Assembly: GCA_030019215.1 (NCBI GenBank)
Contig: JASEEZ010000018.1
Span: 1 to 38,540 of the forward strand
Reading direction: 5' to 3'
Length of the DNA stretch: 38,540 nt
Source: Actinomycetota bacterium
Lineage (GTDB): Bacteria > Actinomycetota > Aquicultoria > Subteraquimicrobiales > UBA9087
In this document: one piece after another, positions 36,589 through 37,373 of the stretch
How the letters are laid out: every line of letters begins with the position of its first letter
How positions within the stretch are numbered: the first letter of the stretch is position 1
Notes under the pieces: generated by a model
Seen by the model: only the letters and a program-made list of their open reading frames with translations
Databases searched by the model: none
What the model was told of the DNA's origin: nothing
Made by a program: the position numbers and the translations under genes

Positions 36589-36654
36589 AGAGTACTCAGT
36601 GGCAGAGAGTTGGTTTATAATATCCCAATAAATGTACGCATAGTTGTCGGCTAA

Positions 36655-36671
36655 CCCCGCCGATGGCGGGG
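36655..36671. repeat. GC hairpin between tRNA-Leu and tRNA-Gly
   Basis: CCCCGCC-GAT-GGCGGGG, perfect stem, followed by TTTTAT. Ends six bases before tRNA-Gly. Could end tRNA-Leu transcripts. Confidence 0.75.
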
Positions 36672-36677
36672 TTTTAT

Positions 36678-37053: not shown

Positions 37054-37125
37054 GGGCGCTTAGCTCAGTGGGAGAGTACTTCCTTGACGCGGAAGGGGTC
37101 ACAGGTTCAAATCCTGTAGCGCCCA
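37054..37125 (+). tRNA. tRNA-Val (anticodon GAC), 3' end without CCA
   Basis: 72 nt to the discriminator. Acceptor GGGCGCT/AGCGCCC, anticodon stem CTTCC/GGAAG with loop TTGACGC, T arm ACAGG-TTCAAAT-CCTGT. The bases after the discriminator A are CTA, not CCA; a second copy of the last 23 bases, with a proper CCA, lies 175 bp downstream. All other tRNAs here encode CCA, so this one was probably separated from its original end by an insertion. Confidence 0.93.
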
Positions 37126-37303
37126 CTATTTATGCATAGAGTTTCTCTTTAATGGTGCAATGAAGACACTAGGGGGTATGGGGGAATTTATCCCCCATGA
37201 TTTTGGGGGTGACAGCCCCGCCGTTGGCGGGGCGTCCTCAGGGGGACTTGTCCCCCTAGGAAGCGCGAAGCGCTAAGCGGTTCAAATCCTGTAGCGCCCA
37301 CCA
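37104..37303. mobile_element. Hairpin-rich insert bounded by a duplicated tRNA-Val end
   Basis: A 23-bp direct repeat (37104-37126 and 37279-37301) consists of the T-arm 3' half and acceptor of tRNA-Val. Between them 152 bp hold four or more hairpins: ATGGGGG/CCCCCAT (37178-37198), GCCCCGCC-GTT-GGCGGGGC (37215-37233), AGGGGGAC-TT-GTCCCCCT (37240-37257), AGCGC-GAA-GCGCT (37262-37274), and outer arms CTAGGGGG (37169-37176) with CCCCCTAG (37252-37259). There is no reading frame. This is the layout of an element inserted at a tRNA end, but no integrase is present. Confidence 0.65.
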
Positions 37304-37356
37304 GAAATTTGGTTGATAGTTGATAGTCGATGGCAAAACACTTAAATTCTTACAGG

Positions 37357-37373
37357 CCCCGCCGACAGCGGGG
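37357..37373. repeat. GC hairpin before the minus-strand gene end
   Basis: CCCCGC-CGACA-GCGGGG followed by TTGTTCTTTT on the plus strand. It lies 23 bp behind the stop of the minus-strand gene at 37397-37816. Confidence 0.65.

Follow-up and report, generated by a model that had tools for sequence, protein, structure and literature searches.

We found that the 3′ end of the tRNA-Val(gac) gene is duplicated around a hairpin-rich insert in the analysed window (the whole 38,540-nucleotide stretch from an Actinomycetota bacterium, contig JASEEZ010000018.1), and that this feature is probably one copy of a family of non-autonomous insertion elements. As judged from sequence comparison, the members of the family are ORF-less, rich in hairpins, about 115-220 bp long, specific for tRNA 3′ ends and placed in tRNA orientation, with about 23 bp of the target duplicated. 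The duplicated stretch covers tRNA positions 52-74, beginning on the T-loop side and ending with the first C of CCA, and because it is duplicated on insertion the host tRNA stays whole. The comparison of copies described below indicates that these elements moved by a target-copying route and not via a fixed attachment site of the usual kind.

ARAGORN identified a tRNA cluster at the end of the window, in which tRNA-Val(gac) occupies positions 37054-37126 of the + strand (Rfam RF00005, 68.1 bits) and ends at C74 without an encoded CA. Sequence comparison revealed an exact 23-bp direct repeat, GGTTCAAATCCTGTAGCGCCCAC, whose first copy (37104-37126, + strand) and second copy (37279-37301, + strand) both correspond to tRNA positions 52-74. 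The CA that follows the second copy (37302-37303, + strand) completes CCA and represents the sequence that originally flanked the tRNA on its 3′ side. When the mononucleotides of this region were shuffled 500 times, the longest exact repeat within 600 bp was 13 bp, compared with the 23 bp observed. The first-pass annotation had described a 23-bp exact repeat derived from the tRNA-Val end and an insert of 152 bp; both were confirmed, and the insert spans 37127-37278. It had also stated that the tRNA-attached copy lacks CCA while the distant copy and all other tRNAs of the window encode it, which held for 7/7 of the other tRNAs. However, CCA was also missing at the Val(cac), Lys(ctt) and Arg(ccg) tRNAs of the same genome, which carry no insert, so that a missing CCA alone is not diagnostic. 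The repeat and insert at tRNA-Val(gac) are neither a chance match nor an assembly error.

The insert begins with a type A leader, YATTYWTGCRT... (37127-37168, + strand), which forms the left part of the element and is common to the copies at tRNA-Ile(gat) and tRNA-Arg(acg). It is followed by the conserved family core (37170-37274, + strand), which was defined by alignment and model search and scored 74 bits with the covariance model R1. An outer inverted pair, CTAGGGGG/CCCCCTAG (37169-37259, + strand; arms 37169-37176 and 37252-37259), encloses the conserved core. The folding analysis placed hairpin 1, the ATGGGGG-AATTTAT-CCCCCAT region, at 37178-37198 (+ strand). The conserved motif GGGGGTGACAGC (37205-37216, + strand), in which GGGGT and ACAG were invariant in the alignment, forms the 5′ foot of the central hairpin (37215-37233, + strand). 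Hairpin 3, AGGGGGACTTGTCCCCCT, and hairpin 4, AGCGCGAAGCGCT, lie at 37240-37257 and 37262-37274 of the + strand, respectively; the earlier description had given at least four perfect hairpins and an outer pair. The fold of the insert was more stable than that of dinucleotide shuffles (z = -4.1). Short hairpins CCCCGCCNNNGGCGGGG equal to the central hairpin of the window element were also scattered over the genome, at 36654-36676 and 37355-37373 of the window and at about 30 further sites.

No credible gene was found within the 152-bp insert, in agreement with the earlier observation. A single stop-free frame of 49 codons on the + strand includes the sole stretch that starts with ATG (about 38 aa); this frame is broken by indels in both other type A copies, the two closest paralogues.

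We then compared the insert with the rest of the window genome (G000; 1.63 Mb in 52 contigs). The insert body recurs behind tRNA-Ile(gat) (89% over insert positions 1-149) and behind tRNA-Arg(acg) (92% over positions 17-136), and each of these paralogues is flanked by the 3′ end of its own tRNA. Together with the Val(gac) copy they form type A, which has its own 42-base leader and no inverted left T-arm. A diverged subfamily was found behind Val(tac), Lys(ttt), Pro(tgg), Arg(tct), Gly(tcc) and Trp(cca). Altogether, at least 9 of the 45 tRNA genes of this genome carry an element copy, three of them in tandem, and the proposed check for copies beside other tRNAs was therefore positive here as well as in relatives. 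As a separate observation, upstream of tRNA-Met(cat) on contig C4 of the same genome (L005:1614-1775) lies a 26-nt duplicate of the 5′ half of this tRNA together with a decayed anticodon arm, a duplication resembling a tRNA pseudogene.

In all copies that retain both flanks, except one recombinant, the sequence after the element is the 3′ end of the tRNA that it lies behind; in this recombinant, the Gly(tcc) copy of G030, the left and right arms come from different tRNAs. The host tRNAs matched by the flanking copy include Val, Ile, Arg, Lys, Pro, Gly, Trp and others. Among the 18 copies with an intact right arm, the repeat starts exactly at position 52 in 12, and most repeats end at positions 74-77. 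The left end of most non-type-A copies is an inverted host T-arm. When this arm was compared with 101 distinct T regions, its own host was the best or tied best match in 15/19 copies and uniquely the best in five. Most copies with the inverted arm also have a single additional T or C in the right copy, located between positions 51 and 52, and the three bases before it again match the host.

A satellite of a tyrosine recombinase, with an attP core that corresponds to the 3′ end of the tRNA and an attB site in the T-loop, would also produce a direct repeat. The T-loop is a known site of action of integrases at tRNA genes, and the repeat sits exactly where these enzymes act and restores the 3′ end. 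However, among bodies with 85-98% similarity the repeats differ and correspond to the respective host tRNA (Val, Ile, Arg, Lys, Pro, Gly and Trp), and a fixed attP is unable to explain near-identical bodies at different tRNAs that are each flanked by their own tRNA 3′ end. Moreover, the tRNA-proximal 3′ half comes from the element in an att reaction, so that a single attP would disrupt any tRNA with a different acceptor stem. No element match was obtained in phages, in plasmids or in two pattern scans of viral contigs, and no integrase was recognised in the insert or, by eye, among the ORFs of at least 90 aa near the listed copies. An integrative element of the tyrosine-recombinase type was thus largely refuted, and a satellite of this kind is improbable; the initial reading of the duplicated tRNA end as a trace of classic site-specific integration was not supported.

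Pattern matches to the core DNA were found in Candidatus Subteraquimicrobium, in Candidatus Oleimmundimicrobium, where three copies lie within one tRNA cluster, and in two more Actinomycetota MAGs, one of which is the sister species G001. The DNA search of the class genomes detected the element in 8/36, with the named matches belonging to Candidatus Aquicultoria. Similarly, covariance model R1, which was built from 20 cores, detected it in 14/397 genomes of the phylum, among them two distant families in which it also lies at tRNAs. All 43 tallied model matches in tRNA loci were located at the 3′ end of a tRNA, and their cores lay on the same strand as the tRNA, in a tabulation in which some loci overlap or derive from two records of the same genome. 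An intact tRNA lies 7-275 nt upstream in 37/43 of these matches, and the other six are truncated upstream by the end of a contig or by a gap, or retain only a tRNA 3′ fragment. The genomes are MAGs, and assembly gaps coincide with some of the tandem copies.

Three further matches were considered individually. In an Acidobacteria MAG (L085:1814-2338), a similar core (GGGGGGTGACAGC-hairpin-GCGTCCTAGGGGGG) lies behind a thiolase-like gene, the 3′ end of which is tandemly repeated together with the hairpin block; the match has the core motif of the family but was left out of the count of tRNA copies. A match in Bryobacteraceae (L089) was rejected as a chance pattern match inside an apparent coding repeat. 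In the Actinomycetota genome SpSt-1170 (L084:190-245), the second T-loop copy of an element is split by another GC-rich palindromic repeat.

The search of relatives for empty sites, which had been suggested as a check, identified such sites at Pro, Gly and Arg tRNAs of related species, which are not isogenic strains. The Pro(tgg) site is empty in G030, and its 3′ flank equals the sequence after the second copy in G000 and G001. The Gly(gcc) site is filled in G028 and empty in G029 and in the window genome, while the Arg(tct) and Gly(tcc) sites are filled in the window genome and empty in its sister species G001. The cores group mostly by genome or subfamily and not by tRNA; the identity between the Gly(tcc) core of G000 and that of Pro(tgg) in G001 is 98%. 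The suggestion of a very small non-autonomous element is therefore supported by the dispersed paralogues, the empty sites in relatives and the missing ORF, and dispersed copies, absence of an ORF, target duplication and empty sites are all MITE-like properties.

Units in tandem were seen at Lys(ttt) and Trp, and also at Gly(tcc) and Pro, where they adjoin assembly gaps. A comparison of G029 with G030 at Arg(acg) showed that the T-stem of the tRNA and the second copy had changed in concert, which suggests gene conversion. Such tandem units and joint changes would fit a local origin without mobility, in which replication slippage, template switching at T-arm hairpins and recombination build the repeat and the body is an unrelated filler. 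However, the same body with covarying stems is present at many tRNAs and in other genera. This shared body refutes local origin as the sole cause, and we give the idea very little credence; homologous recombination alone does not give dispersal with host-matched flanks.

The alignment showed that the entire central stem is exchanged from copy to copy and that its base pairing is preserved. The covariation score was 0.279, compared with 0.137 in shuffles and at most 0.096 with slid partners. The constant tRNA orientation and the covarying stems make a structured RNA co-transcribed with the tRNA possible. Such an RNA might be functional in the trailer of the tRNA transcript, for example as a regulator or processing switch with anti-T-arm pairing to the tRNA, and might have been dispersed by occasional duplication events and maintained by selection. 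The better fold was that of the tRNA strand in 25/26 copies, this strand has far more G-U pairs, and the inverted arm still matches the host tRNA where the right copy has decayed (G088, G119). A weak resemblance to the Clostridiales-2 RNA (RF02937) also fits this reading, at 28.5 bits and below the 58.6-bit gathering threshold of Rfam. However, the shuffle-corrected fold z-scores were equal on both strands, so that RNA and single-stranded or cruciform DNA are indistinguishable by fold, and the bias towards the + strand may reflect composition. Moreover, the element is absent from most tRNAs, its presence at the same tRNA varies among species of one genus, and the right copies decay in distant families, which also means that an exact second copy is not needed. 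We consider a selected trailer RNA unlikely as the main explanation of the family.

For the insertion-element reading, we propose the following route. An enzyme acting in trans would cut the two strands in a staggered way near positions 52 and 74, at a distance of about 23 nt, or a copy would be synthesised from such cuts; the hairpin body would then be joined at the cuts, and fill-in would give the direct repeat. The complementary ends of the hairpin body would fold together, and snap-back synthesis would yield the inverted arm. Later recombination between the two copies would produce tandem arrays and precise loss. Insertion is probably harmless, since a complete T-arm and acceptor strand remain with the tRNA, and this may explain the tRNA 3′-end niche. 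More tentatively, the two target-matching arms, namely the left inverted T-arm and the right direct T-arm with the acceptor strand, might be copied anew from each host tRNA to which the element moves, with a folded single strand or RNA finding the next tRNA by base pairing and leaving it intact. Several points weigh against the insertion-element reading. The extra base between positions 51 and 52 and the three upstream host-matching bases are unexplained by a plain target duplication, a duplication of 23 bp is long for known cut-and-paste transposases, and the direction of movement is read from empty sites in related species. Moreover, neither an autonomous copy nor a copy flanking a transposase was found. 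As to terminal inverted repeats that a MITE-like element would share with its autonomous parent, no such parent was identified, and the left inverted arm is derived from the host.

We also examined the carriers for enzymes that could mobilise the element. Reverse transcriptase was absent from the carriers G001, G022, G028-G031 and G034, and a retroelement that requires this partner for target-primed reverse transcription was rejected. Similarly, Cas1 was absent from G000, G001, G022, G029, G031 and G034, several of which are high-completeness carriers, which excludes Cas1 as the required partner of a casposon-like element. An IS605-type element with a TnpB guide RNA was rejected since TnpB was absent over the cut-off in G000, G001, G022, G023 and G028-G031. 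LAGLIDADG genes were common in carriers and non-carriers alike. In Candidatus Subteraquimicrobium, LAGLIDADG endonuclease ORFs (PF14528 match; L083:5260-6054) lie directly behind the Gly(gcc) element copy and are absent in the sister genome G029; they were set aside as the driver because other copies have no such ORF.

The only tested candidate present in nearly all carriers was a RAYT-like Y1/HUH transposase, which is weakly favoured as the mobiliser. Target duplication is not known for IS200/IS605-type transposases, which argues against this candidate. Y1 transposases were found in 29/36 class genomes, including every class carrier but G030, and the window genome has six; they are also present in many non-carriers, and their presence in carriers therefore does not discriminate. 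A specific form of the insertion-element reading, in which a RAYT/TIRYT enzyme moves a REP/TIR-type element through single-stranded hairpins, is conceivable but doubtful. The core motif GGGGTGAC fits GGGGWSAS, a motif of the TIRs around some TIRYT genes (PMC3733652). However, the core motif was near 0/20 sampled Y1/RAYT loci, and the repeats at the sampled RAYT loci read GGGG(T/A)CAG. Two RAYT-like transposase genes (L175:998-2119 and L177:642-1634) have flanking inverted repeats with GGGG(T/A)CAG or TAGGGGACG tips, like described TIRtrons.

A duplicated tRNA end is commonly taken as the mark of a tyrosine-recombinase island. Our results suggest that the same signature can come from a target-copying route that acts on many tRNAs with no gene in the element, and many carriers have no reverse transcriptase or Cas1. 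The filled, empty and tandem sites form a natural series in which a novel mechanism of insertion, or an RNA carried along on tRNA transcripts, could be sought. A search of the open literature, with subscription journals outside its coverage, returned no description of this element family.

Among the known systems, islands and satellites of tyrosine recombinases likewise duplicate the tRNA 3′ end from the T-loop side to the end, but the present element is only about 150 bp long, has no integrase, and the sequence of its repeat is set by the host tRNA and not by a fixed attP. Casposons and Cas1-type integration share the target duplication, and casposons can use tRNA ends; in contrast, several high-completeness carriers have no Cas1, and the element has no casposon-type terminal repeats or genes. 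The Clostridiales-2 RNA resembles the element in a GGGG hairpin followed by a GUG-CAG hairpin CGUC, a weak full-length match whose score is far under the family cut-off. REPs are short extragenic palindromes located mostly downstream of coding genes (PMC3733652, PMC3116915). Like REPs/REPINs and the TIR families with RAYT/TIRYT (PMC3733652, PMC3116915), the element is short, gene-less, palindromic and dispersed, and its core fits the motif of some TIRs. Unlike them, it lies only at tRNA 3′ ends and in one orientation, carries a 23-bp target copy and an inverted target arm, and flanks 0/20 sampled RAYT genes. Taken together, the element behaves as a MITE-type element that differs from REPs/REPINs, integrase satellites and casposons in the tested defining features, and there is a real chance that its target-copying arms make the family something new.
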